A stretch of DNA of 64,000 nt. Source: Bdellovibrionales bacterium RIFCSPHIGHO2_01_FULL_40_29 (GTDB lineage: Bacteria; Bdellovibrionota; Bdellovibrionia; Bdellovibrionales; Bdellovibrionaceae). The first letter of the stretch is position 1. The number at the start of each line of letters is the position of its first letter. Positions 22,153 to 52,113 of this stretch are shown piece by piece. The stretch is taken from NCBI GenBank assembly GCA_001771815.1, contig MEPU01000013.1, forward strand, positions 310,001 through 374,000, read 5' to 3'. The translations under genes and the position numbers were made by a program. Below the pieces are notes generated by a model, which had not been told where the DNA came from, ran no database searches, and was given only the letters and a program-made list of their open reading frames with translations.

Positions 22153-22184
22153 TTTTTACATCGAACTCTTGCTAGCCTTTGTTT

Positions 22185-23024
22185 ATGAAAAAAAACATCA
22201 CTAAACTGGTATTGATTTTTGCGTCTGCATTTTTATTATCTCAACTTTCGTTCGCAACAGCCATTGGTGGATCTGTTTCAACAGCAACAGGTGGGACAGG
22301 GCGTGGTGCTATTGAGCCTATTGATGGTGTTCTGCTGAATCCATCAAGTGTTGCTCAGATCAAGTCACAATTTTTTTCATTTACTTATTCTACAGAACAA
22401 ATGGGAATCACTATTTCCGACAATGGAAAAGAAGCTCTTTTTCCAGCGGCACTTGCGTTTGTGCGAACAGAGCGCGACAATTTGAAAACTCAAGACATGG
22501 CCTTGGTTTTGGCTTACAAGATCATGCCGCAGTTATCCTTTGGAACCACAGTATCACTTGTTGAGTATGTTCAATCCAATAATGGTTTAGAAGATAAGTA
22601 CCGACAGACAGTTGGTGATATCGGGATTTCATTTGCACCGACTAAAGAACTTTCGCTTGGAGTGGTTGCCTATAAGGTGTTCTCATCCAGCGCAGAACTG
22701 GCTGAAGTTTTACAAAAACAAAAGCAAATTGGATTAGGAGTCAGCTACACATTTGATACTTTTGTGAGGTTTCGATTTGACGTCGAATCTGCCCCTGAAA
22801 ATGAAACGGATCGATTGACGTATATGGGGGGGCTCGAGACTTATTTGAACGAATGGGTCATCGTTCGATTGGGATACCAGAATAACAACGTGGTTTCGAA
22901 AAATTTTACAACAGCAGGGCTTGGGTTCTCGGGCCCTCAATTTGGTATACATTACGGGTACTTAACTAACGTCGCGAACCGGGATGAAGACAGACATACG
23001 GTTGACTTGGGTATTCCTTTTTGA
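22185..23024 (+). CDS. predicted outer-membrane beta-barrel protein
   Basis: A signal peptide (MKKNITKLVLIFASAFLLSQ, cleavage after SFA) precedes alternating amphipathic strands. The segment GAIEPIDGVLLNPSSVAQ near residue 40 resembles the N-terminal 'AxxGxDAxxxNPAgla' hatch of FadL/OMP_transp-like proteins. The chain ends in the C-terminal phenylalanine (LGIPF) recognised by the BAM complex. At 279 residues it could form 10-12 strands. The start was placed at 22185; an in-frame ATG lies two codons earlier. No ligand can be suggested. Confidence 0.7.
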   Translation: MKKNITKLVLIFASAFLLSQLSFATAIGGSVSTATGGTGRGAIEPIDGVLLNPSSVAQIKSQFFSFTYSTEQMGITISDNGKEALFPAALAFVRTERDNLKTQDMALVLAYKIMPQLSFGTTVSLVEYVQSNNGLEDKYRQTVGDIGISFAPTKELSLGVVAYKVFSSSAELAEVLQKQKQIGLGVSYTFDTFVRFRFDVESAPENETDRLTYMGGLETYLNEWVIVRLGYQNNNVVSKNFTTAGLGFSGPQFGIHYGYLTNVANRDEDRHTVDLGIPF

Positions 23025-24579: not shown

Positions 24580-25692
24580 TTACTCGTTCAAGAGTCCGTC
24601 AGGAATAATGCCCTGACGAATAGCGTCCGCAAGAGCTAAATGTTCCGGACAACCAATGATCGTCAAAGCCTCCTCGAAGGGGCGTGGATCTGGCGCAAAC
24701 AACTTTAATTTTTTAACATCTAAAATACGTTGATGAGTTTTTTCTAAATCGGATTTATGCAATTGGCCTTGCGCAATAGCCGTGAGCAATCCTTCAATCG
24801 CGATCGGAGGAGATTCGGGCTCATTGCAATAGAGTAGCAGATCTGCACCAGCCTGCATTGCACGAATCGGGATATCGCCTTTATCATAATGTGTGGCCAT
24901 GGCTTTCATATCCAGATCGTCGGTTATAATCAGACCACGGTATTTCATTTCATCACGGATCATTGTTTTAAGGAAAAAATCAGACAACGTGACAGGCCAT
25001 TTTGGATCAATATTTTTAAATAAAATATGTGCCGTCATCACCATGTCGACTCGACTACGCAATGTTTTTTTAAAGGGAACAAGTTCAACCTCATGTAGGC
25101 GCTCAAGAGTGGCGTCTTCAACGGGTAATTCTTCGTGAGAATCAATGATTGTATTGCCATGACCTGGAAAGTGTTTGGCACATGATAAAATTCCGGACTT
25201 GATGTATCCGCGAACCAAAGCCGAACACATTTTTTCAACCTGATAAGGATCCGAGCTAATGGCGCGATCGCCAATCACTGTATTTAACGGATTTGTGAAA
25301 ACATCCACACACGGTGCAAAATCCAAATTGATTCCAATACTCATCAGTTCAGTTCCCATGCGTTGAGCAAAATGAAAAGCAACTGTTGGTGCATCCAAAT
25401 CACCGATGAGCTTTAATGGTGGCCACTGAGTAAACGGAGGCTTCAGGCGATGCACGCGACCGCCCTCCATATCAATTCCAATAAACAGTGGCGCTTTGTC
25501 CTTCATCTGATGGCGAAGAGATTGAATTTCAGCACAAAGATCTCGGATTTGTTTTGGCTCGATACAATTACGTGCAAAAAGAACCACACCAGAAATATTA
25601 TTATTAATGATAAAAGATTTTTCAGACGCCGTCAGTGTTGCGCCGGAAACTCCAATGAGCATATGTTGTCCAATTAATTCGCGAAGTCCCAT
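24580..25692 (-). CDS. nagZ: beta-N-acetylhexosaminidase (GH3)
   Basis: The 370-residue protein has the GH3 NagZ marks: KHFPGHGNTIIDSHEELP near residue 170, holding the catalytic histidine-aspartate acid/base pair, and LIITDDLDMKAM near residue 252, whose aspartate is the nucleophile. GVVLFARNC and IGIDMEGGRV are also typical. It releases GlcNAc from GlcNAc-anhydroMurNAc-peptides during wall recycling, which fits anmK 7 kb away. It starts 3 bases after the previous gene (AGGAAAA upstream), so the two form an operon. Confidence 0.9.
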   Translation of the reverse strand: MGLRELIGQHMLIGVSGATLTASEKSFIINNNISGVVLFARNCIEPKQIRDLCAEIQSLRHQMKDKAPLFIGIDMEGGRVHRLKPPFTQWPPLKLIGDLDAPTVAFHFAQRMGTELMSIGINLDFAPCVDVFTNPLNTVIGDRAISSDPYQVEKMCSALVRGYIKSGILSCAKHFPGHGNTIIDSHEELPVEDATLERLHEVELVPFKKTLRSRVDMVMTAHILFKNIDPKWPVTLSDFFLKTMIRDEMKYRGLIITDDLDMKAMATHYDKGDIPIRAMQAGADLLLYCNEPESPPIAIEGLLTAIAQGQLHKSDLEKTHQRILDVKKLKLFAPDPRPFEEALTIIGCPEHLALADAIRQGIIPDGLLNE

Positions 25693-25695
25693 AAT

Positions 25696-26475
25696 TTATT
25701 TTCCTTTAGCGTGATAAATATTTACTTTGCCAGTTGGGATGTCGCCAAAAAGTTTTTCCAGTGTTGAAGAACTGACTTTGACTCCCTCGAGCGCTTCCTC
25801 TGAAGACTTAACCAACTCTGTTTCAATTCCTGTAGCTGCTGTTGAAGCTGAAATAGCTTCGCCGCGATCAGAAATTAAGTTTTCATATTCAATTCCAGCA
25901 AATTTATTCGTTACTTTCAAGAGCTGCATGGATCCTTGTGAAACCATTTTTTTGTCAACTTTTGCGGACCCCGTTTTAATATCAGCCAATTCTTCAGCAA
26001 TGGCTTGAAAGTCATATTTAGAATCCGTTTTTAAACCCTCTTTACTTTTCAGCATAAGATAATAAAGCGTTGTGGATAAGAATGTGCCTTTGGGGATTTT
26101 CTTTTCCACTTTGGATACTTTGCCATCTTCTGTGGCAACAGCGGACATTTTATCTTTAGCAAACTTGGCGTCTATCGTTTTTGTTTTTTTACCGTCTGTT
26201 GCCAGGTAACTATAGCTGATCGGTGCAAGCTCGGCAGAAGAAAGCGTCGAGAGAGACTCGGTCATATCGAAACCATTTTTTGAAAGCCGTGTAAATGAGA
26301 TGGTTTTAAAATTTCCGGTTTTACTGTCGAGTTCATTTCTGAGAACAAAAAATCCAATGTGTTTTTTAAATTGTGAAACTTTATAGTAACCTTCAAAAAT
26401 AATTTCAGCACTTGCGGATAGCGAAAAGACCATACTTCCAACAGCAAAGATCAGTGGTAAAAAGATTTTTTTCAT
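25696..26475 (-). CDS. exported protein, DUF3108-like
   Basis: A clear signal peptide (MKKIFLPLIFAVGSMVFSLSASA) precedes a 236-residue lysine-rich mature protein. The pattern of an opening EIIFEGYYKVSQFKKHIGF strand and a late KLFGDIPTGKVNIYHAKGK tail gives no firm family; DUF3108-type periplasmic proteins are a loose match. GGAG lies 12 bases before the start. It is immediately upstream of nagZ in the same operon, so a role at the cell wall is conceivable but unsupported. Confidence 0.65.
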   Translation of the reverse strand: MKKIFLPLIFAVGSMVFSLSASAEIIFEGYYKVSQFKKHIGFFVLRNELDSKTGNFKTISFTRLSKNGFDMTESLSTLSSAELAPISYSYLATDGKKTKTIDAKFAKDKMSAVATEDGKVSKVEKKIPKGTFLSTTLYYLMLKSKEGLKTDSKYDFQAIAEELADIKTGSAKVDKKMVSQGSMQLLKVTNKFAGIEYENLISDRGEAISASTAATGIETELVKSSEEALEGVKVSSSTLEKLFGDIPTGKVNIYHAKGK

Positions 26476-26636: not shown

Positions 26637-29084
26637 ATGAAGAAACCTCAATTCGTGTTATCCAGAAAAAACCAAAAAGGTCAGGTGGCTATATTTGTCG
26701 CTCTGATATTTCAAATTATTTTCGTCTTCTTTGCCCTTTTGATAAATATCGGCCTTATTGTTCACCATAAAATTAATTTGCAGCAATCCACAGATTTAGC
26801 TGCCTACTATGGTGCCATGAAACAGGCCGAGTCCCTGAACGCGATAGCTCATATTAATTTTCAAATTCGCCAAGCATGGAAATTGTTAACTTGGAGATAT
26901 CGAGTGCTAGGAACTTTTGGTTTTCAAGGGCCCAATCCACAATTTGATAAATTAAGCGGCAGTCCCCCGGTGTTTCCTGTGACCATGAAATATGCGACAG
27001 ATTCCATTCGAAATTCAAAAAGTGCGATTGATGGCGGAGCTTGTCCTCCAGATCAAGATGGAATGCGAGTAAACACATTAACGCATCCATTTTTTTGTAT
27101 TGGTCATGCTGGAATGAGTGGTTGGGTGGATAAACAAGAAAATAATTGCAAGGTCAGTTGCCCATTGTTGGAAGATACCGCATCAGTGGATGTGGGTGGA
27201 ATTCCACCCATGAATGTTGTGATTTCCAATGGAATTTCAGGATCCATTAATCAAACTATTGCATCTGTGAATGATAATTTAAATGTGCTCTGCACATCGC
27301 TGGGTCCAACAAATGTCAATGTTTTGGCAAAAATAATTGTTGGTTATCAGCGTGATGCCGAGCTGCGATCACGGACACTTTTAATGCTAGCATCTAATCT
27401 CAGTAAAGATAAATTTGTTGATCTTGATGGTGGTGATGTTGTGACTGGGGTCAAAAATACATTGCTCAACAATTTGACCGAAGCCAATCGAACATCAGTG
27501 AATGAAAATTTGGCTAAAATAAATACCTATAATAGTCTGTCTGCAAATGCGTGTGCTATGACGGAAGATCGAGCTAATGCGGGTAAAAAGAGCGGTGGAA
27601 AATCCGAATTTTTAAAACGAATTGAATTTAATTTGGTTCAGTTTTTTGTTCATGATTGCAAATGGATTCCCACTCCGCCTGGTAATAATGGTTTTCAACA
27701 ATTTCGTTCGGGAAGTTTATACAATAGATCTTTGACCGGATTGTCAGATGGTTCGAAAGATAGCACGGGTCGCGAAACTCCGGATTTTAGTAAAATCGAT
27801 TCTAAAATTCAAGACGCTCTAATTAGTCTTATTGGTGTTGAAAATGAGAGATACACGGTGGGGTATGAAAAAAACCCATGGTGTCCCGCATATTATTTTG
27901 TTTCAGCTACGGCCGAGCCGATGATTCCTTTTTTACCATTGGTGAAAATAAAATTGAGTGCTCAGGCGATTGCAAAACCATTTGGTGGAAGTATTGGTCC
28001 ATGGTTTGGAAAAACGTGGCCAGCCAGTGCCAATACAACTCAAGAGGGATTCTCGGGCGTCGATCGAAGCAATCAAACAGATGAAATGCTTCCGCTTCAG
28101 CATTCATTGAATGCACCTGTAACAAGACGGCGGGATACTTTGAAGCTTTTGCCAAATTTTTCTAGATATGTGGGTGATAAAATGGGATTGGCAGATCCTG
28201 ATGTTGTTGCGGAATATCATGCTGCACTTATTGATAGTCTTCCACGCGGAGCAACCAGTTTTGGATCTCCAAAAGAAGATGAAAACTTGCCTCCTGTGCA
28301 CCACCTGAGATTACCGAATAAATGGCCGTCCATGAATTCGTGGAAAGATGTTGATAACCCAGATGCGGGATCAGATTATGATCCACTGACAAAAATAAAT
28401 GGCAGAGACTCAGGCCTTCGAGATCTTGAAATTTCTGCTATTACTCCGAATCAGTTTGATTTGACTTACTACTCGATTGATTCTGATTTTTACAACAACT
28501 ATTACAAGCGGCTTAAGTCGCCCGTGATTTTAAATAAAATTAAAGATTCTGCGGGTGGCGGCCCAGATGCGAAATACATCCGGCCAGATTTGGGAAATAA
28601 TGAAAATGTTTATACTGGAAAACGAGATTTTTCAGTTCGTAACCAAATTGAAATTGTGAAAAAAGTTTTAGGTTCAGGATTTCAAACTCAATTAAAAGAC
28701 TCAAGCCCATCCTTTATCAAAATGTTTCCCTTTTTAGTGACTCACCAATCATCGCTATTGACCAGTTGGACATTTCAAAATTTTACAGATTTCAATTTAT
28801 TCCCGGATGGGGATGTTTTTAATGTGAACTCACCTCAAGGAACAATGGTATTTGGTCGTTGCAACGATTCTTGGGCCACCGGGTCACAAGAATTCAATTC
28901 TCCAGTGGACTCGGGCCTACCTCCCGCAGCAGGAAATTGTGTGACGGGTGGGCGATCAGGCTACTCGGTTAAATTGGTATCGCCATCACTTCTGCGTTCG
29001 TCGGCGCCACCGCAACCGTTGGGTGGAGTCAACACCAATGGCCAAATCAGAAATCCGATTCCAGAATATTATTTTTCGTACTAG
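26637..29084 (+). CDS. TadE/TadG-like membrane-anchored large exported protein
   Basis: Residues 14-70 match the TadG-type start: KGQVAIFVALIFQI, a membrane helix ending in INIGLIVHHK, then LQQSTDLAAYYGA, where TadG proteins have LQxAADAAA. In Tad systems such pseudopilins are processed and anchored near the Flp pilus. The remaining 740 residues are unlike known pilin parts, with eleven or so cysteines and no visible domain. There is no ribosome binding site in the expected place. It leads a set of three co-directional genes; tad secretion ATPases are not in the window. Anchor call good, function unknown. Confidence 0.7.
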   Translation: MKKPQFVLSRKNQKGQVAIFVALIFQIIFVFFALLINIGLIVHHKINLQQSTDLAAYYGAMKQAESLNAIAHINFQIRQAWKLLTWRYRVLGTFGFQGPNPQFDKLSGSPPVFPVTMKYATDSIRNSKSAIDGGACPPDQDGMRVNTLTHPFFCIGHAGMSGWVDKQENNCKVSCPLLEDTASVDVGGIPPMNVVISNGISGSINQTIASVNDNLNVLCTSLGPTNVNVLAKIIVGYQRDAELRSRTLLMLASNLSKDKFVDLDGGDVVTGVKNTLLNNLTEANRTSVNENLAKINTYNSLSANACAMTEDRANAGKKSGGKSEFLKRIEFNLVQFFVHDCKWIPTPPGNNGFQQFRSGSLYNRSLTGLSDGSKDSTGRETPDFSKIDSKIQDALISLIGVENERYTVGYEKNPWCPAYYFVSATAEPMIPFLPLVKIKLSAQAIAKPFGGSIGPWFGKTWPASANTTQEGFSGVDRSNQTDEMLPLQHSLNAPVTRRRDTLKLLPNFSRYVGDKMGLADPDVVAEYHAALIDSLPRGATSFGSPKEDENLPPVHHLRLPNKWPSMNSWKDVDNPDAGSDYDPLTKINGRDSGLRDLEISAITPNQFDLTYYSIDSDFYNNYYKRLKSPVILNKIKDSAGGGPDAKYIRPDLGNNENVYTGKRDFSVRNQIEIVKKVLGSGFQTQLKDSSPSFIKMFPFLVTHQSSLLTSWTFQNFTDFNLFPDGDVFNVNSPQGTMVFGRCNDSWATGSQEFNSPVDSGLPPAAGNCVTGGRSGYSVKLVSPSLLRSSAPPQPLGGVNTNGQIRNPIPEYYFSY

Positions 29085-29169
29085 AGGCTCATCCGTCGAT
29101 AGCGTATCAAAATAAGACAATTTAAGTCCTCTGGACCTTTGTCCGATAAGTCATTATCCAGGGGGATGT

Positions 29170-31443
29170 ATGCGTGCAGCTATCAGCGTATTATTTTTCT
29201 TTTTCGCATCCATTTTTTTATCGAATGCGAGAGCATATAATTTCACAGCTGATACAAAATATATGGCCTGCAAGAATGCGTACGGCGAAACAAAGTGTAA
29301 AAATTTTCCTGCCATTAATAAGAAAGCCTTTGTTGATAGTTTCGCAAAATGTACCTTAAGCGGTGACACGTACACGACCGTAAATAATTTTATCGCCCAA
29401 ACATGCGGAAAAAATGTAAGCACAGAAATCAGTCGTCTGTGCATCGAACGCGTTGAAGTCGGAGTCAGCCAAAAAGTCACTTCCGTTTGTGCAGCCATTT
29501 CAAAAAGTCAGGCTCCTCCACCAGCAGCACCAGCTCATGCACCACCACCAGCTGCGGCACCAGCAAAACCTGTAGCAAAAGACGCAGCGAGCGGAACAGT
29601 AAATGCGGGATCAAGTGGTTCCTCTGCAGCGGGTTGGTTACCAGTAGCCAAGGGTGTAGCTGAGGGCGCTGTAAAATATTACGAGGGACAACAAAAAGAT
29701 GGTTCTGCGCAGCCTGCGCAAGGTGGGGAAAGCAAACCTGCTGCAAGCACAGCAGCGACACCAAGCCAAAGTTCCTCCCCGGCGTCAAGTGTTGCTGCGA
29801 GTCCTATTTCAAGTCCATCTGATGAACAAAAAGCGCTTCAAGGAAATGCGAACGATTCGGGCGTTGCAACTTCGTCAGAACCTACTGTGCCGGTACAGCC
29901 AATAAATGGTCGTCAAGCGGAGGTTGAAACTGCCGCAGCTAAAGCTCAAATGCCAAAATTAGCTGCTAAAGTAAAAGAAATTCCGGGATTAGATGCTGCC
30001 GCAGAACAAAATGTAAAAGCATCGCAAAACACGGAATTAATGGGGAATGGCGTGCAAGGAGAAATAACTTCAGCCGCAGAAGCAGCAAGCGCATCACTAC
30101 GTCAAGCTGGAGACTCAGCATATTCTACAGCAGAATCTATAACTGCAGTTGGCGGTGACTTCGCTCTAACAGCGAATGCTCTGGGAGAAACTAAAGTTGC
30201 ATTATATACTTATGTTGATACAACAAAAAGAGCCTGTACTGGTATGGCTGAAAAAACTGGATTTGTTTGTATGGAGGGCACTAGCCAAGGCGTTCAAGCC
30301 GCAAAAACGGCAATGGAAGTTGCTGGTCCCGTTTTGGGAGTCATTAATTCTGCACAAAAATCATGTTCAAAAACAGCAGATGTTACTCGAATGGTAAGTA
30401 CAGGATTAACGATTGCAAAAGGAGTTTGTATCGCATCCAAACTGCTATGCAGTTCATCTTGCAAAACGGCTGTTGGCCAAGTGAATACAATAAGTGAAAA
30501 AATAAGAACAATTCCTGGAATAATTCAAAAAGATCAGGCTAGTGGAATTGCAAAATGCAATGCTATGACAGTAGGAGCAGCGGCATGTGGTAATCGAGTA
30601 AACAATGAGGCAAAAACAGCTTTTGCTGAATATAAAAAACTTGAAGCCGTCATTCAAAGAGAATCAGCTCCATCGCCGGGAACATCTCCGCATATGATTG
30701 TTAAATGCGAAACTCATGCAAAAGATATTGCGATGATGGCCATGAATGCTATTGGAACAATGCAGGCACATAAAAGTGCGAAAGAGTGTGAAAAGAAATT
30801 AGAAGCAGCGGCTGAATCAGGCGGCAGCGCGGCGGCTATTACGCCGGCTCAGTATTGTGCGACGTCTGAGAATGCGGTGACTACTTATTGTAAGTGTCAG
30901 CGGGATGGTTCTCAGGTGGGGTGTCCTGGGGCGATTGCTTTGACGACCTCAACAGATGGCGTGGCCAAAAATGATGAGGGGTCTTCGGATATTCGTGGCA
31001 AGGGTGGCTTGAGTCAGTTTGCGGGCGGCGGAAAAATTAATGCTGGAAAAATGGGGAGCCCATTGGGTAATTCGGCGCTGCTGGGTTCTGCGGCCGCTAA
31101 AGATTCCGCAGCACAAACATCAAGTGGATTTTCTGCGGGGACAGGTGCGAACCCAGCCGGCTCTTCAGCTCATTCTGCTAGTGGTAAAAATGCTGAGCTT
31201 GGAAAAACAGAAGAAGCAAAAAAATGGAGCTTTGGTGGTTTTGGTTCGGCTTCCGGTGGCGGGTCGGGTGCGGGTGGTCAGGGTTCTAGAAACGCAGGAT
31301 CTATTGGACAAAAAGAATTAAATGCGCGTGCGATTGCATCTGAAAAATTGAGGGCTGAAGTTTCAGAAGCATCTGGAAAATCCAATTGGGAAAAAGTGCG
31401 TGAAAGATATATTCGCAAGTCATCATCACTTTTGGAACGATAA
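29170..31443 (+). CDS. exported Ala/Ser/Pro-rich protein with cysteine pairs
   Basis: The signal peptide (MRAAISVLFFFFASIFLSNARA) is followed by a cysteine-containing N-terminal domain (residues 30-115, six cysteines), a disordered Pro/Ala/Ser linker (about 115-250), an alpha-helical Ala-rich core with many cysteines (about 290-580) and a Gly/Ser-rich tail. No family is recognised. AGGGGG lies 4 bases before the ATG. It follows the TadG-like gene by 85 bases and precedes the 465-residue gene by 27. The cysteine spacing suggests a stable periplasmic or surface structure. Confidence 0.65.
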   Translation: MRAAISVLFFFFASIFLSNARAYNFTADTKYMACKNAYGETKCKNFPAINKKAFVDSFAKCTLSGDTYTTVNNFIAQTCGKNVSTEISRLCIERVEVGVSQKVTSVCAAISKSQAPPPAAPAHAPPPAAAPAKPVAKDAASGTVNAGSSGSSAAGWLPVAKGVAEGAVKYYEGQQKDGSAQPAQGGESKPAASTAATPSQSSSPASSVAASPISSPSDEQKALQGNANDSGVATSSEPTVPVQPINGRQAEVETAAAKAQMPKLAAKVKEIPGLDAAAEQNVKASQNTELMGNGVQGEITSAAEAASASLRQAGDSAYSTAESITAVGGDFALTANALGETKVALYTYVDTTKRACTGMAEKTGFVCMEGTSQGVQAAKTAMEVAGPVLGVINSAQKSCSKTADVTRMVSTGLTIAKGVCIASKLLCSSSCKTAVGQVNTISEKIRTIPGIIQKDQASGIAKCNAMTVGAAACGNRVNNEAKTAFAEYKKLEAVIQRESAPSPGTSPHMIVKCETHAKDIAMMAMNAIGTMQAHKSAKECEKKLEAAAESGGSAAAITPAQYCATSENAVTTYCKCQRDGSQVGCPGAIALTTSTDGVAKNDEGSSDIRGKGGLSQFAGGGKINAGKMGSPLGNSALLGSAAAKDSAAQTSSGFSAGTGANPAGSSAHSASGKNAELGKTEEAKKWSFGGFGSASGGGSGAGGQGSRNAGSIGQKELNARAIASEKLRAEVSEASGKSNWEKVRERYIRKSSSLLER

Positions 31444-31470
31444 GTTTTGTTTTTTTAATGGGAGATTTTT

Positions 31471-32868
31471 ATGGGGAATAATTTTTTTAGTGTGATTGTA
31501 GCGGGGATTTATTTTTCTATGACCGCATTCGCCTATTCACCAGCGCCAGTTCATCCTGGATATTCAAGTTGTCCCATCGTTGATATTCCTGGGCCGGGCC
31601 ATACTGCGGAGGCCCCGGTTTATGTTAAAGGTCCAAGCCCAAGTTGTATTTCTTCAATTGATAGAAAACATGAAGCGGCAACAAATTCACACTACATTGC
31701 TCAGGATATGTTTCGTGGTGGCTATGATGGAAAAACGCCGCCCGCACAACCCGTATTAGCAACCTGTGGTACATCAGATAATGGTAACGGCTCTCAAATT
31801 GAAAATTCAGCTTGTGCTAATAGTAATTATAAAAAACAGGCAGAGTATTCTCGTCAGAAGCAAATTTATGATTTTATTCAAACCGAGAAAGCAAAAACAG
31901 AGACTGTCAAAGCAGAATCATTACGAAGCGCTAGAAACGGCTCATCAACGGAAACATTGGCCGAAATTGAAGCGACAAATTTAGATATGGCTGGTAAGCA
32001 AAAAGACAAACAGGGTCAGTTTATGATGACATCAACAATTTTGGCGGGAGCCTATGCTGCGTCTTGTAGCGGTGGGTGTTACACACCATTATTGTACGCC
32101 AGTATTGGTGCTGGAATTATGGGGATGCTTTCGGGAAAACAAGCCAGCAATCATATGGAAAGTGCTGGGCTGGCTTGTCAGTCTTATAATAGAATTGCTT
32201 CTGCAGGAAAAATTTGTGGTGAAGCCGTACCATTTAATGCAAGTGACTTAAATAATCCCGTATTTCCGAATGAACAAATCAATCCGATCACGGGACAATG
32301 CAAGCCGAACGCTCCCGCAACATGTACTGTTGAACGACAACGCTTTCTTGATCGGAATGGTGGAAATTTAAATGCATTAAAACCAGGACCTTCAGGATTT
32401 GGCGGGGCTGGGAATCAGTATAAATTTAATAGTGATGGAACAGTAACAACAAAAGATGGGAAAAAATTTTCGGCAGCGGATTTTGCGGATGAGAAATCAA
32501 TGATTGCTGCAGGACTTTCTCCGGCAGAGGCTGCGGAAACATTCAAAGCATTATATGGAAAAAATGGAGTCGTTGCTAAAATTGGACCGATTAAGGACGA
32601 ATTGATAAAAGCCAGCAACTTTGGAAGTTCTGGTGCTAATGGTGGTGGCGGCACGATGACCATCAAATTAGGAGAAGAGTCCTCAAACAGCGAGGACTTG
32701 GGAATAAAAAATATGGCAGACTCAAACAAGAGAAAACTGGCATCAGACGAAGGGTTGGTTCGTAATTTCAATGGAGATCATATTGGAATCGCTAATGACG
32801 ATATTTTTAGAATGATGAAAAGACGTTATAACTTAAAAACAGCACAAGACACCTTTATCAGTCCATGA
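31471..32868 (+). CDS. exported protein of unknown function, 465 aa
   Basis: A signal peptide (cleavage near residue 22 after AFA) precedes a cysteine-bearing region. A charged helical segment follows at residues 125-185, then two short hydrophobic, Gly/Ala-rich stretches (MMTSTILAGAYAASCSGGC and LLYASIGAGIMGMLSG) that could insert in a membrane. The C-terminal 170 residues are polar, with glycine-rich patches. GGGAG lies 6 bases before the ATG. It is the third member of the TadG-like cluster and has an architecture similar to its upstream neighbour: cysteine-rich N-part, helical middle, Gly-rich tail. Confidence 0.65.
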   Translation: MGNNFFSVIVAGIYFSMTAFAYSPAPVHPGYSSCPIVDIPGPGHTAEAPVYVKGPSPSCISSIDRKHEAATNSHYIAQDMFRGGYDGKTPPAQPVLATCGTSDNGNGSQIENSACANSNYKKQAEYSRQKQIYDFIQTEKAKTETVKAESLRSARNGSSTETLAEIEATNLDMAGKQKDKQGQFMMTSTILAGAYAASCSGGCYTPLLYASIGAGIMGMLSGKQASNHMESAGLACQSYNRIASAGKICGEAVPFNASDLNNPVFPNEQINPITGQCKPNAPATCTVERQRFLDRNGGNLNALKPGPSGFGGAGNQYKFNSDGTVTTKDGKKFSAADFADEKSMIAAGLSPAEAAETFKALYGKNGVVAKIGPIKDELIKASNFGSSGANGGGGTMTIKLGEESSNSEDLGIKNMADSNKRKLASDEGLVRNFNGDHIGIANDDIFRMMKRRYNLKTAQDTFISP

Positions 32869-32926: not shown

Positions 32927-34042
32927 ATGACACTTTTTCCGCAAAATCGTAGTAAAAAATTAAATGTTGTTGGAATTATGAACGGAACAAGTCTGGATGG
33001 AATAGACTTTGTCTTTATTCAAGTTGAAAAAAAAAATCTGAAGTGTCAGTTTAAAAAAATAAAATCATTTTCATTTTCAAAACAGCTTCAGGATCAGTTG
33101 TCTCGAGCAGCAAATCATTTAATGAGTGTGGATGAGCTGGCATTGCTTCATCACGAGTTGGGTCGTTTTTATTCACAGTGTTTTTTAAAATTGGGATTTG
33201 GAAAAGTTGATTTGATTGGACTTCATGGTCAAACTGTTTTTCACAAAGGTCGTATGGCAAGCCTTCAAATCGGTGAGCCCAGTTATTTGGCGGTGACGGC
33301 GGGTTGCCCCGTTGTTTCCGATTTTCGAGTTGCAGATATTGCTCTGGGCGGCGAAGGTGCTCCGGTAGCCACATTTTTTCACCAACAAGTTTTTGGATCA
33401 CTTCAATCTAAGCTGAGTATTCACAATTTAGGTGGAATTAGTAATCTGACTCTTTTAAAAAATGGAAAAGTTGTTCAAGGCTTTGACACGGGGCCTGCAA
33501 ATATGCTGATTGATTTAGAAGTACAACGATCTTCAAAAGAAAAGCGACGTTATGATCGCAACGGTGCCACAGCAGAAAAAGGTCAATCTGACCAAGCACT
33601 TGTGAAAAAAATGATGCAGCATCCTTATTTTCGTAAGAAAGCACCTAAAAGTTGCGGTCGCGAAGAATTTGGAATTTTATTTTTAAATCATTTTTCGAAT
33701 CAACTTAAAAAATTATCTGAGCCAGATCGCTTGGCAACATTGACAGATTTTGTTGCCACATCAATTGCTCACGCCTATCTGAAACACGCCAAGTTTATAC
33801 CGCATGAAATTATTTTTTGTGGAGGTGGTGTTTATAATAAATTTCTTTTGAAACAAATTCAAAAAAAATTACCGAATGTAAAAATGTCGACAGTGGAATC
33901 CTATCATTGGGGCGCACAAAGCATCGAGGGCGCGGCCTTTGCTTTGCTTGCGGCAGCAAAAATTTGGAATATAAAATCAAGTCTTCCAAAATCCACAGGC
34001 GCTCGGCGAGCGGTCAGTTTGGGAAAAATAACCGTTATTTGA
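32927..34042 (+). CDS. anmK: anhydro-N-acetylmuramic acid kinase
   Basis: The 371-residue protein shows the AnmK signatures: GIMNGTSLDGIDF near residue 18 (phosphate loop), GLHGQTVFH, SDFRVADIALGGEGAP (catalytic aspartate region), NLGGISNLT and FDTGPANMLID. It opens the 1,6-anhydro ring and phosphorylates MurNAc in the cytoplasm. The last 8 bases overlap the convergent MurU-like gene. It acts downstream of NagZ; whether its product MurNAc-6-phosphate goes to MurQ or to a phosphatase feeding AmgK is not settled by this window. Confidence 0.93.
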   Translation: MTLFPQNRSKKLNVVGIMNGTSLDGIDFVFIQVEKKNLKCQFKKIKSFSFSKQLQDQLSRAANHLMSVDELALLHHELGRFYSQCFLKLGFGKVDLIGLHGQTVFHKGRMASLQIGEPSYLAVTAGCPVVSDFRVADIALGGEGAPVATFFHQQVFGSLQSKLSIHNLGGISNLTLLKNGKVVQGFDTGPANMLIDLEVQRSSKEKRRYDRNGATAEKGQSDQALVKKMMQHPYFRKKAPKSCGREEFGILFLNHFSNQLKKLSEPDRLATLTDFVATSIAHAYLKHAKFIPHEIIFCGGGVYNKFLLKQIQKKLPNVKMSTVESYHWGAQSIEGAAFALLAAAKIWNIKSSLPKSTGARRAVSLGKITVI

Positions 34043-34955
34043 TTATTTGATCAGCAAAAGCAATACAGTTTTCAAATACAGTTTCAGACTTAATCTCTGC
34101 TGATTTTGATATGCAATTGAATCCCGACAATCGATTTATGTCAATATGATGACTTCGAGAAATTAAAGATGAAAGAATAAGATCACTGGGGTCATAGAGG
34201 TTGATGAATCTTTTCAAATGATCATTTGAATCTAATTTCGTAAGGACATGTTCTGTTGTTTTTAATAAGTCTTCGTTATTTCCGGTTTCAAACCAGTCGG
34301 CCTCAAGCTTGAAGGTCTGTACTCGGTTAAGTTGATTAAACAAAGTATCATACAAAATATTTTGTTCAATTCCAGGCTTGATCATTGAAAGCATCTCCCA
34401 AGATAGCAGACAAACGCCAATATAGTGCCATGGCTTCAGCGTTTGATCAGAACAGGTTTTGCCGATGTGACGAACCGAATCGCCGTCACACCAAATGGCT
34501 CCGAATTTTTTACCAGCCTTAGGATGTGGAATAATTGCAAGGGTCGCCAGCGCATTTGATTGCTGATGTTGTGCGGACATAGCATTTAAAAAAGTCAGAT
34601 TATCTGTAAAATAAACTTCATCAGCATTCATAAGCAGAATGGGTTGGTTAGGAGTTAGCAAGTTCTCTGCATTTTTGATGGCTCCGGCACTACCCAGTAT
34701 TTGTCCTGGTTCAAACGAAAATTGCGGAGGAACTGACTTGAAGTAAGGTTGCTCAGAATAAAGAGATTCAATTTTTTTTGGTAAATGATGGGTGTTGATA
34801 ACAAATGAACTGATCGGTACTTCCAGATGAGGAATGTACTGAAACTGATACAAGCCCATGGGCACATTCAGAAATGGAATGGCGGGCTTAGGAGTGAATT
34901 GCGTGTAGGGAAGTAAACGAGTTCCTAAGCCAGCGGCTAAAAAAAATAAGTTCAT
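34035..34955 (-). CDS. MurU-like sugar-1-phosphate nucleotidyltransferase
   Basis: The N-terminus LAAGLGTRLLPYTQFTPKPAIP is the nucleotide-binding signature of sugar-phosphate nucleotidylyltransferases; LLMNADEVYF holds the metal-binding aspartate. Directly after an AmgK-like kinase gene (one-base gap), the likely role is UDP-MurNAc formation from MurNAc-1-phosphate. At 306 residues it is longer than Pseudomonas MurU (about 220), so a different sugar or an extra C-terminal domain is possible. Its 3' end overlaps anmK by 8 bases on the other strand. Confidence 0.72.
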   Translation of the reverse strand: MNLFFLAAGLGTRLLPYTQFTPKPAIPFLNVPMGLYQFQYIPHLEVPISSFVINTHHLPKKIESLYSEQPYFKSVPPQFSFEPGQILGSAGAIKNAENLLTPNQPILLMNADEVYFTDNLTFLNAMSAQHQQSNALATLAIIPHPKAGKKFGAIWCDGDSVRHIGKTCSDQTLKPWHYIGVCLLSWEMLSMIKPGIEQNILYDTLFNQLNRVQTFKLEADWFETGNNEDLLKTTEHVLTKLDSNDHLKRFINLYDPSDLILSSLISRSHHIDINRLSGFNCISKSAEIKSETVFENCIAFADQIIK

Positions 34956-34956
34956 T

Positions 34957-36000
34957 CTAAAGGCTTTCGTAATTTTTGTTCAAAGCATCAGAATCAATAA
35001 GCACATCCATCAAAAGCTTATATTCTGGAAAATGTGACAAGGATCGGGCGACGCGTTTAATTGTGTGTGGCAAATATTTGAGATACCGTCTATCCTTACG
35101 AACATTCATAAAGCTGGCAAAACTTCCACAAGCTTTAAAACAGCGCTGAACAGATTGCAATTCGTACATCACTTGAAACTTTTCCAAACTAAAGTCTTTT
35201 GTTTTTTTAATACTTGAATTTTCAAAATAATAATTCATCAATGAATGAGCATACTCATCACTTAGATCCACATAGGAGTCTTTAAAAAGGCTCACCAAAT
35301 CATATTGAACAGGACCAAGGCGGGCATCCTGAAAATCAATAACAAAGACTTTATCGAGTTTAAGCATAATATTTCGTGAATGATAATCGCGATGACAGAT
35401 GACTTTTGGTTCTTGATGGAGGCGTTCACAAAAATCAGCAAAAACACGATCCAGTTCTGCGGCTCGTTTTGTTGTCATTTTGTAATTCAAAATTCCTAGT
35501 AGCAAATGTTCTTTGGCATAATTCATTTCCCATATAAATTTAGCGGTATCAAACATGATCTCTGTCGCACAGGTTTTATTTTTTAAAGTGGTTGCCACAT
35601 CATGAATTTTAATAATTTCGTCGATGGCTTGATGATAAAAGGCCTTCGAAAGCAGTTGATTGGTATTTTCTAAAAATTTTCTTTCTAAAGTGAGATCTCC
35701 AAGATCTTCTTGAAGCAAAACACCGAGATCTCCATTTACAGCTACAATCGTTGGAACATTGACGTGAGCCAATTTAAAATGACGCTGAACGCTTAAGAAC
35801 GGATAAGTCTCTTCTTGAAAGGGTTCCCAAAACATCAAGATCCAGGTTTTTTCACCAGAGATAATGCGATAGTACTTTCGGGCTGACGCATCACCGGCCA
35901 ATTGATAGATCGAAAACTCTTCGGCCGATTGAATTGTTTGTTGAACCCAATTTTGGATGGGAATCGAGATAGGATTGCTAAGTTCAGACACCATTTTCAT
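34957..36000 (-). CDS. AmgK-like sugar kinase (aminoglycoside phosphotransferase fold)
   Basis: The 347-residue protein has the APH-type kinase motifs: QLAGDASARKYYRI near residue 34 (the AmgK form of the glycine loop), LLQEDLGD (hinge), ICHRDYHSRNIML (catalytic loop, aspartate and asparagine) and VFVIDFQDARLGP (metal-binding DFG equivalent). AmgK phosphorylates MurNAc or GlcNAc at C1 as the first step of the MurU bypass. The length matches AmgK (about 340). It is coupled to the MurU-like gene, which supports the assignment. No murQ-like gene is in the window. Confidence 0.78.
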   Translation of the reverse strand: MKMVSELSNPISIPIQNWVQQTIQSAEEFSIYQLAGDASARKYYRIISGEKTWILMFWEPFQEETYPFLSVQRHFKLAHVNVPTIVAVNGDLGVLLQEDLGDLTLERKFLENTNQLLSKAFYHQAIDEIIKIHDVATTLKNKTCATEIMFDTAKFIWEMNYAKEHLLLGILNYKMTTKRAAELDRVFADFCERLHQEPKVICHRDYHSRNIMLKLDKVFVIDFQDARLGPVQYDLVSLFKDSYVDLSDEYAHSLMNYYFENSSIKKTKDFSLEKFQVMYELQSVQRCFKACGSFASFMNVRKDRRYLKYLPHTIKRVARSLSHFPEYKLLMDVLIDSDALNKNYESL

Positions 36001-37131: not shown

Positions 37132-38688
37132 CTATCGAGCAAGCTTGCGTTTGTCTAAAGCATACTTTTCGACTTTCATAATCAATCCCGCACGACTAAT
37201 TCCCAGCTCTTTTGCCAGTTTGGACTTATTCCATCCTGTGCGACGTAAGCCTTCTTTAATCATTTCGCGTTCAAGTTCTTCTAAAGCATCTTTGAGTTTA
37301 CCGTGAAGTCGTGAGCCTTGAACTTTTGTTTTCTCGCCAAGTTCTAAAATTTTAGGAGAAAGAATTTCATGACCGATTTTTTGCTCATCTCCAGCCAAAA
37401 CGCATAAACGTTCAATTTCATTTTGCAATTCACGCACATTTCCAGGCCATGGATAATCATATAATTTTTCAATGGCTCGGCCCATTAAGGATTTCTTTGG
37501 TTTATTTGAAGACTCTGCGGCTTTAGATAGAAAGTATTCAACGAGCAACGGAATATCTTCTTTGCGTTCGCGCAGTGGAGGAACGCGGATATTAATAACA
37601 TTCAAGCGATAGTACAAATCTTCTCGAAAAGTGCCTTGCTCGACCATCTCACGAAGGTTTCTGTTTGTTGCCGCAACGATACGAACATCAACTTTACGCA
37701 TTTCCGTAGATCCAACCGGAGTAAATGTACCCTCTTGCAAAACGCGAAGTAACTTAACCTGCATTTGTGGTGAGGTGTCACCGATTTCATCTAAAAAGAA
37801 AGTTCCTTTGTCGGCCATTTCAAAAAGACCTTTTTTGTCTTTTAAAGCACCAGTAAATGAACCTTTGATATGACCAAAAAGTTCAGATTCTAAAAGATTA
37901 TCATTGAATGCCGAACAGTTTTGAATAACAAATGCTTTATCTTTACGATGTGAGTTGTAGTGAATGGATTTTGCAATCAACTCTTTACCAGTACCATTTT
38001 CACCTTGAATCATCACAGTTGAATCCGCAAATTTGATTTTATCCATTAAAGCATACAGTGATTGCATCGGTTTGGATTTACCCATCATGTTGTCATATTT
38101 AAATCGGTTTCCCAATTCCTTATTCAGTTCCGTGATTTTATTCTCGCGACTCGAAATTTCAACATGCAAAGTCACAATCTCTTGCGCAACCAGCTCAACC
38201 AGTTCACAAAAGTGTTGGCGATTTGAATCATCAACGTACTGAAACTTACTGACAGATTTTTCAATCAGTTCATTGGTGCAACCAAAGGCGGCTAAACGTT
38301 CACGAACTTCCAAAGAACGAGTGGAAATTTGAGCGTCTTTAAAGAACCCCATAGCTACAACAGTTCCAACAAAATCATTTTCGATGATGATGGGAAAGAC
38401 ACAGACATCAAATCCTGATGCATCCCATTTTTTGATAAGATACCGATTTTGTGATTGCCGTAGATCTTGAATAGAGTTTGAAACCAACTCGGCCAAACTA
38501 TTTTGAGTAACTTCTTTATTGACGAGATAATTCACTGCGGGATTGGCATAAGTAATTTTATCACCCTCAAAACCTTTTAAGTGACCGCGCTCGTCTGTGA
38601 ATACGATGTCAATATTCCACCATGCATGCAGAATATGTTTTAATTTTTTGATAACATGTATATGTTCGAAATCATCCCAATTAATCAT
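37132..38688 (-). CDS. sigma-54-dependent transcriptional activator
   Basis: The 518-residue protein has an N-terminal sensory domain (residues 1-185, GAF/PocR-like, with FDVCVFPIII and VGTVVAMGFF strands) and a linker coiled coil. The AAA+ domain carries Walker A GENGTGKE near residue 233, the sigma-54 contact loop GSFTGA, Walker B FFLDEIGD and the arginine-finger REDLYYRLNV line. A Fis-type HTH follows at the end (KSKLAKELGISRAGLI). GSFTGA instead of GAFTGA is a known tolerated variant. AAAAGGAG lies 7 bases before the ATG. Target genes are unknown. Confidence 0.9.
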   Translation of the reverse strand: MINWDDFEHIHVIKKLKHILHAWWNIDIVFTDERGHLKGFEGDKITYANPAVNYLVNKEVTQNSLAELVSNSIQDLRQSQNRYLIKKWDASGFDVCVFPIIIENDFVGTVVAMGFFKDAQISTRSLEVRERLAAFGCTNELIEKSVSKFQYVDDSNRQHFCELVELVAQEIVTLHVEISSRENKITELNKELGNRFKYDNMMGKSKPMQSLYALMDKIKFADSTVMIQGENGTGKELIAKSIHYNSHRKDKAFVIQNCSAFNDNLLESELFGHIKGSFTGALKDKKGLFEMADKGTFFLDEIGDTSPQMQVKLLRVLQEGTFTPVGSTEMRKVDVRIVAATNRNLREMVEQGTFREDLYYRLNVINIRVPPLRERKEDIPLLVEYFLSKAAESSNKPKKSLMGRAIEKLYDYPWPGNVRELQNEIERLCVLAGDEQKIGHEILSPKILELGEKTKVQGSRLHGKLKDALEELEREMIKEGLRRTGWNKSKLAKELGISRAGLIMKVEKYALDKRKLAR

Positions 38689-51648: not shown

Positions 51649-52113
51649 CTATTTCCAAATTCCAGAACCGGCGATCCACTTTTTATCGCCTTTACAAAGT
51701 TTTACAAAGGATGTTTTTGGAGTGGCATTTTCTGCACCTGGTTTTGGCCAAAGATAATCTACCCAGCCACCATTTTTATTTTTTCGAGCCATTTTATCAA
51801 ATTCGACAAAAAGAGCTTTGGAGCCATTGCCATTATTATCCATTTCAAGTTTTAAATCGCTTCCATCTAATTTTGGCCGTGTCGGATGGACAACCATTTT
51901 TATATCGCTATCTTGAACCCAAACATAATTTGATCCACAATATCTAAATTTTTTAAGGGCTTCGATGGCTTTGGCAGAGTCATTTTTTTCAATTTCAGCA
52001 CACATTTTTTCAACAGCTTCTTGAGCTTGTTCTTTTTTGCAGATGTCTTCTGCCTGAACTTGAACACCGACGAGCATAATAAGAGCAACAACGACTTTTG
52101 AAATGAGACTCAT
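51649..52113 (-). CDS. secreted single-Cache-domain protein
   Basis: A signal peptide (MSLISKVVVALIMLVGVQVQA) leads to a 133-residue mature protein with the sCache pattern: YVWVQDSDIKMVVHPTRPKLDG, then DYLWPKPGAENATPKTSFV and a KKWIAGSGIW end. Such domains normally form the extracellular sensor of chemoreceptors and kinases; here it stands alone with no membrane helix or output module. Four cysteines could make disulphides. GGAGG precedes the ATG. It is the first gene of the operon with the chemoreceptor. Confidence 0.8.
   Translation of the reverse strand: MSLISKVVVALIMLVGVQVQAEDICKKEQAQEAVEKMCAEIEKNDSAKAIEALKKFRYCGSNYVWVQDSDIKMVVHPTRPKLDGSDLKLEMDNNGNGSKALFVEFDKMARKNKNGGWVDYLWPKPGAENATPKTSFVKLCKGDKKWIAGSGIWK

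Follow-up and report, generated by a model that had tools for sequence, protein, structure and literature searches.

What is a large TadG-like protein doing beside two exported cysteine-rich proteins, and far from the tad operon of its own genome? The question is raised by three genes of Bdellovibrionales bacterium RIFCSPHIGHO2_01_FULL_40_29, which lie within the window analysed here (a stretch of 64 kb, positions 310,001 to 374,000 of contig MEPU01000013.1, from a genome of 2.93 Mb in 13 contigs). The answer suggested by our analysis is that they are probably parts of a surface apparatus that such bacteria build when hunting prey. More specifically, gene 1 would be the TadG/KilN-type backbone of a Tad (Kil-like) pilus tip, and genes 2 and 3 would be attack-phase exported partners docked by a tail that they have in common. 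We put the probability of this reading at about one half. The three genes are as follows.

26637 to 29084, plus strand: gene 1, a large TadG/KilN-type minor-pilin-like protein of 815 amino acids (Pfam Tad match, conservation in the phylum, AlphaFold model)
29170 to 31443, plus strand: gene 2, a predicted exported cysteine-rich protein of 757 amino acids, one of a paralogous tailed family
31471 to 32868, plus strand: gene 3, a predicted exported protein of 465 amino acids with a hydrophobic two-cysteine segment, a GxVTxxDGKxF module, a Gly/Ser linker and the C-terminal tail

The open reading frame (ORF) coordinates confirm the arrangement given in an initial annotation of this DNA, namely three genes on the same strand separated by 85 and 27 bases. 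The TadG-type start that the annotation had assigned to gene 1 survived a profile search: Pfam family PF13400 (Tad) matches residues 15-61 with an E value of 6.2e-7 and 30.1 bits, as against a cut-off of 22.3. An orthologue scores 35.5 bits, and across the whole genome the profile matches gene 1 only. The matching segment carries a conserved cleavage-type start.

26679 to 26819, plus strand: N-terminal hydrophobic Tad (TadE/G) segment of gene 1, the start of its long alpha-1 helix, with the start motif G/QVAIF

PF07811 (TadE) has no match anywhere in the host genome, no NCBIfam model exceeds its cut-off for gene 1, and a plasmid collection searched with gene 1 gave no match. In the Protein Data Bank (PDB) gene 1 has no relative by sequence, and by fold (Foldseek) nothing with E < 1. 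Is it then peculiar to this organism? Our sample of the phylum comprised 192 Bdellovibrionota genomes, 158 of them of good quality; the order Bdellovibrionales accounts for 54 and the family for 28. With a profile made from 14 relatives, gene 1 was found in 175 of the 192 genomes and in 153 of the 158 good-quality ones. Inside Bdellovibrionales the whole 745-position profile aligns; outside the order only about positions 8-230 and 365-420 do. This narrower range suggests that gene 1 consists of a fixed pilin-like core and a variable, order-specific distal domain, the distal part beyond Bdellovibrionales being presumably unrelated or too divergent to align. The AlphaFold model, built from 69 sequences (predicted template modelling score 0.84), has helices at residues 7-91 and 200-255 and a beta block at 326-449. 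Taken with the alignment range, it gives gene 1 the large domain distal to a pilin-like core that is a mark of TadG. In one Bdellovibrio genome the orthologue is broken into two frames (L184, G069:C1:3666311-3668571), by a frameshift or a sequencing error.

A large TadG is absent from the host tad operon, which lies 81 kb downstream of gene 1 and encodes RcpC, a secretin, a TadZ-TadA fusion, a T2SSF protein, an RHS-repeat protein and pilin-like ORFs. These last are all small, and some of them start, by eye, with G/xxxxE. Gene 1 is thus encoded neither in nor with the tad locus in the host. The expectation that it would be found near tad ATPase genes in relatives held in part: only two genomes, G097 and G118 of another family, have it as close as about 8 kb to tadZ-tadA, whereas in three Bdellovibrio genomes (G048, G069, G073) the distance to tadZA is about 32 kb.

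Searches of Pfam and NCBIfam place genes 2 and 3 in no family, which agrees with their description as unrecognised partners. Both open, by eye, with the expected Sec-type signal peptides (MRAAISVLFFFFASIFLSNARA- in gene 2, MGNNFFSVIVAGIYFSMTAFA- in gene 3), and they contain 20 and 10 cysteines, respectively. AlphaFold gives residues 330-757 of gene 2 a helical domain, much of which has a predicted local distance difference test score above 90, then a disordered linker (590-713) and two C-terminal helices of modest confidence. The common layout that had been noticed in the two proteins (a cysteine-bearing head, a helical middle and a Gly/Ser-rich tail) holds, and extends to homologous C-termini.

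30160 to 30903, plus strand: helical cysteine-rich domain of gene 2, residues about 331-578, with eight cysteines invariant in the orthologue alignment (AlphaFold model)
31285 to 31440, plus strand: conserved C-terminal tail of gene 2, residues 706-757, two predicted helices around GKSNWEKVRERY
32752 to 32865, plus strand: conserved C-terminal tail of gene 3 (GDHIGIANDDIFRMMKRRYNLKTAQDTF)

Orthologues of gene 2 end in G.SNW.KV..RY....L and those of gene 3 in G..IGV..D.IF.M..RRY..K....F. When the last 60 residues were compared with HHalign, the two tails proved homologous (probability 94.2%, E 1.2e-7); controls, comprising 14 gene families and the tails of gene 1, gave probabilities of at most 1% and E values of 0.06-0.94. 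The core of the tail can be written [DNS]-x-[IN]-[WF]-x-x-[IVM]-x-x-R-Y. A regular expression for the tail matches 40 times in 324,830 residues, and 37 of these matches fall in C-terminal tails, a figure that measures specificity and not discovery because the expression was derived from the same tails. A profile of the tail finds 1-11 copies in 51 of the 54 order genomes, and elsewhere weak sporadic matches only.

A genome-wide search with the tail led to tandem arrays of exported-type proteins of 430-730 amino acids, with 18-37 cysteines and a Gly/Ser-rich linker, which in Bdellovibrio end in LPGG..DP..RG.AG...IW.KI.NRY. The array profile and the gene 2 profile match each other, and gene 2 is accordingly one member of a paralogous family. 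The gene 2 family occurs in 47 of the 192 phylum genomes, 45 of these being in Bdellovibrionales. The host itself has an additional gene 2-family pair on contig 4, adjoining flagellar genes. Arrays of two to four tailed paralogues are present in the host and several Bdellovibrio genomes (L215, G000:C4:691000-709000; L217-L219), and their neighbours include an aspartate-kinase-like gene and flagellar P-ring/rod-type genes (named by eye). Further copies of the partners away from gene 1 are a lone gene 3 in G092 (L045, G092:C1:3024851) and a second gene 2/gene 3 pair at G145:C1:3553493-3555939.

Are genes 2 and 3 expressed when prey is hunted? Among 140 attack-phase promoters mapped in Bdellovibrio bacteriovorus, 92 have TTAAG-N16-CCGATA, the signature of FliA (PMC3627812). 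The same sequence precedes gene 2.

29122 to 29148, plus strand: predicted FliA (sigma-28) attack-phase promoter, exact TTAAG-N16-CCGATA, ending 21 bases before the ATG of gene 2

No other exact copy occurs in the window. The host genome has seven, as against three for the reversed pattern, so where the site lies and how far it is conserved count for more than an exact match by itself. When a FliA site between -100 and +60 was required to match in at least 9 of 11 positions, one was found at 25 of 37 gene-2-family genes versus 14 of 376 other genes at the same loci; the Fisher p of 2e-21 is too small because orthologues are not independent. A scan with the E. coli-type FliA consensus, which was run first, gave enrichment in the same direction, and a scan for sigma-70-type promoters found fewer sites than in shuffled sequences. 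A search of the open literature for attack-phase transcription data on gene 2, made with guessed HD100 locus tags, gave no locus-tag match. To judge from its promoter sequence, gene 2 would belong to the hunting programme, as probably would gene 3 through the gene 2 promoter. An imperfect palindrome resembling GTCTCA-N3-TGAGAC was also seen in intergenic DNA upstream of several gene 2 and array genes of Bdellovibrio (L217-L219, L223); the window contains no exact copy of it. A palindrome TCTCA-N-TGAGA before some array genes was dropped as a candidate, its exact form being absent from the window.

The three genes stay together in relatives, as had been anticipated. In 27 of the 28 genomes of the family, genes 1 and 3 share a contig and are no more than about 5 kb apart. 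The order provides 46 named loci whose downstream sequence is long enough for the comparison; gene 3 is within 6 kb of gene 1 in 31 of them, and both partners are in 26. There is one family in which gene 1 is near tad while both partners remain with muropeptide recycling genes.

How might these proteins work together? The large minor pilin of TadG/KilN type that the tad operon lacks would be gene 1, encoded elsewhere. Together with the operon's small pilins it would sit at the tip of the pilus, held there by its long N-terminal helix and pilin-like core, with the order-specific distal domain exposed. Expressed in attack phase from the FliA promoter, the products of genes 2 and 3 would be exported by Sec into the periplasm, where disulphides would lock the cysteine-rich helical head of gene 2, from which a flexible Gly/Ser linker would lead to the short two-helix tail. 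The common tail would be a docking module by which various heads, those of gene 2, gene 3 and paralogues at other loci, attach to a single receiver. The simplest candidate for this receiver is the distal domain of gene 1, and the heads would thus be displayed at the site of prey contact. That the distal domain and the tails are limited to the same order, and that their genes are adjacent, favours docking to gene 1, as far as a correlation can. A bolder version is that this new Bdellovibrionales tail serves in attack phase to load exchangeable exported proteins, locked by disulphides, onto a Tad tip receiver peculiar to the order, making a plug-in adhesin/effector system; we advance it tentatively and think it rather unlikely in this full form.

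Several observations weigh against a prey-hunting pilus tip. Upstream of gene 1 no FliA site was found at 9 of 11 matches in any of 14 orthologues, and with its own FliA promoter thus lacking, gene 1 may lie in a transcription unit that is timed differently from that of gene 2. The tails are nearly confined to one order while gene 1 is phylum-wide. In the exceptional family genome (G094) gene 1 and its partners are on different contigs, and in family f5 gene 1 lies away from genes 2 and 3. The conserved start of gene 1 has Phe at +5 in place of the Glu+5 of classical prepilins. Lastly, that gene 1 and the Tad motor occur together proved uninformative as a test, both being near-universal in the phylum: the TadZ-TadA fusion is present in 192 of 192 genomes, hence in all 158 good-quality ones, and a gene found in every genome cannot discriminate.

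Could the tail serve another purpose? Sorting tags such as PEP-CTERM, Myxo-CTERM and the type IX secretion C-terminal domain (T9SS CTD) are short conserved C-terminal modules that follow a flexible linker on diverse exported proteins. The tail of genes 2 and 3 and their paralogues is built in the same way, and might be a C-terminal sorting or secretion signal by which some machine takes cysteine-rich proteins across the outer membrane, onto it or to the cell pole, the adjacency of gene 1 being regulatory or historical. We regard this as possible, if somewhat improbable. It is consistent with the tail forming the very end of proteins that otherwise differ and are encoded at many loci, including the flagellar-gene arrays far from gene 1. 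However, arrays alone would not call for genes 2 and 3 to adjoin gene 1 nearly as often as they do within the order, and the tail has the same taxonomic range as the gene 1 distal domain. Moreover, the known tags have a transmembrane helix or a beta-sandwich, whereas the model gives the tail two short helices and neither of these; it also differs from them in being nearly restricted to Bdellovibrionales and in having no Pfam or NCBIfam match.

The flanks of the three genes bear on another explanation.

24580 to 25692, minus strand: NagZ-type beta-N-acetylhexosaminidase, conserved flank (context only)
25696 to 26475, minus strand: DUF3108 exported protein, conserved flank (context only)
32927 to 36000: AnmK (plus strand), MurU-like nucleotidyltransferase (minus strand) and AmgK-like kinase (minus strand), muropeptide recycling, conserved flank (context only)

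Muropeptide recycling genes (NagZ, AnmK, MurU-like, AmgK-like) thus stand on both sides of the set, and the arrangement is kept across the family. Gene 1 could then be a TadG-like anchored scaffold in the periplasm, and the set a non-pilus complex of the periplasm or inner-membrane envelope, perhaps tied to cell-wall recycling. The lack of Glu+5 in gene 1 and the recycling genes that flank the set in many genomes point that way. The recycling genes, however, encode cytoplasmic enzymes and cluster also without gene 1 (in f5), unrelated genes adjoin gene 1 in distant families, and the attack-phase promoter is on gene 2 with none on gene 1. We therefore consider such a complex unlikely. That the gene 2-family heads are delivered effectors, for example helical membrane-active proteins, with the module as an effector-loading set, is very improbable: the family is expanded and apparently attack-phase controlled and a fold search of the PDB with the gene 2 head ranks ClyA-type pore formers, which are long helical bundles, highest, but these matches are non-significant (best E 0.09, TM-score about 0.2-0.3), designed bundles stand in the same list, as if any long helical bundle would score alike, and no pore-former signature was identified, so that a ClyA-type pore former is not claimed.

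Elsewhere in the window are three genes of separate interest. A sigma-54-dependent activator (37132-38688, minus strand) adjoins the recycling genes in most relatives, and its orthologues in several species have upstream FliA-like sites (TCAAG...GACGATA). A small exported Cache-domain protein (51649-52113, minus strand) has a good FliA-like promoter, TTAAGTTC N11 GCCGATAT. A predicted outer-membrane protein (22179-23024, plus strand) matches PorV/PorQ-type and FadL-type proteins below the threshold.

How does a pilus tip built on gene 1 compare with known systems? A canonical TadG (PF13400) resembles gene 1 in the N-terminal Tad segment, which scores above the curated cut-off, and in being a single large protein per genome, so that gene 1 would complete the TadE/F/G set; the differences are its distance from the tad operon and a distal domain of about 400 amino acids that belongs to no family. 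A 2025 paper (PMC12075869) already describes Tad/Kil pilus tips whose basis is a large TadG/KilN pilin and predicts such a tip in B. bacteriovorus, and to call the locus an undescribed system, as the initial annotation did, was too strong. In that paper these tip pilins combine a pilin-like core with a variable distal domain, and KilN4 has an extra domain without PDB relatives. Gene 1 is like the KilL/KilM/KilN Tip of the Myxococcus Kil (Tad-like) pilus in its size, pilin-type N-terminal helix, conserved core and variable distal domain without PDB relatives, and in belonging to a predatory bacterium with a Tad-like motor. A Kil-type Tip combines the large protein with two smaller pilins in a heterotrimer, and the host tad operon does contain small pilin-like ORFs. 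Unlike the Kil Tip, it is encoded with two signal-peptide-bearing, non-pilin, cysteine-rich, tail-sharing proteins, partners of a kind not mentioned in the accessible part of the paper, and it adjoins recycling genes instead of the small pilins described there. The large subunit of the predicted B. bacteriovorus Tip may be an orthologue of gene 1.

The core predation pilus of the same bacteria is encoded by the Bdellovibrio TAD operon (Bd0109-Bd0119) and flp; the operon is FliA-controlled and the flp pilins are required for predation (PMC5430801). FliA/attack-phase control, to judge by promoter sequence, would be common to that operon and gene 2. Genes 1-3 differ from it in lying outside the operon, and gene 1 in having no FliA promoter match. 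From all this we infer, as had been suggested at the outset, a surface or pilus-associated assembly of genes 1-3. Large TadG/KilN tip pilins are already known; the tailed partners appear to be undescribed, since neither their families nor the tail nor their promoters were found in the databases and literature searched.

For the recognition and entry of prey by Bdellovibrio with Tad pili, genes 1-3 supply a concrete, testable parts list: a phylum-wide candidate for a TadG-like tip protein encoded outside the tad operon, and two protein families without a database name, whose common tail predicts a common receiver. Should the tail really serve for docking or sorting, it would represent a novel means of diversifying the pilus tip or the cell surface, and a handle for finding more prey-interaction proteins in these genomes.

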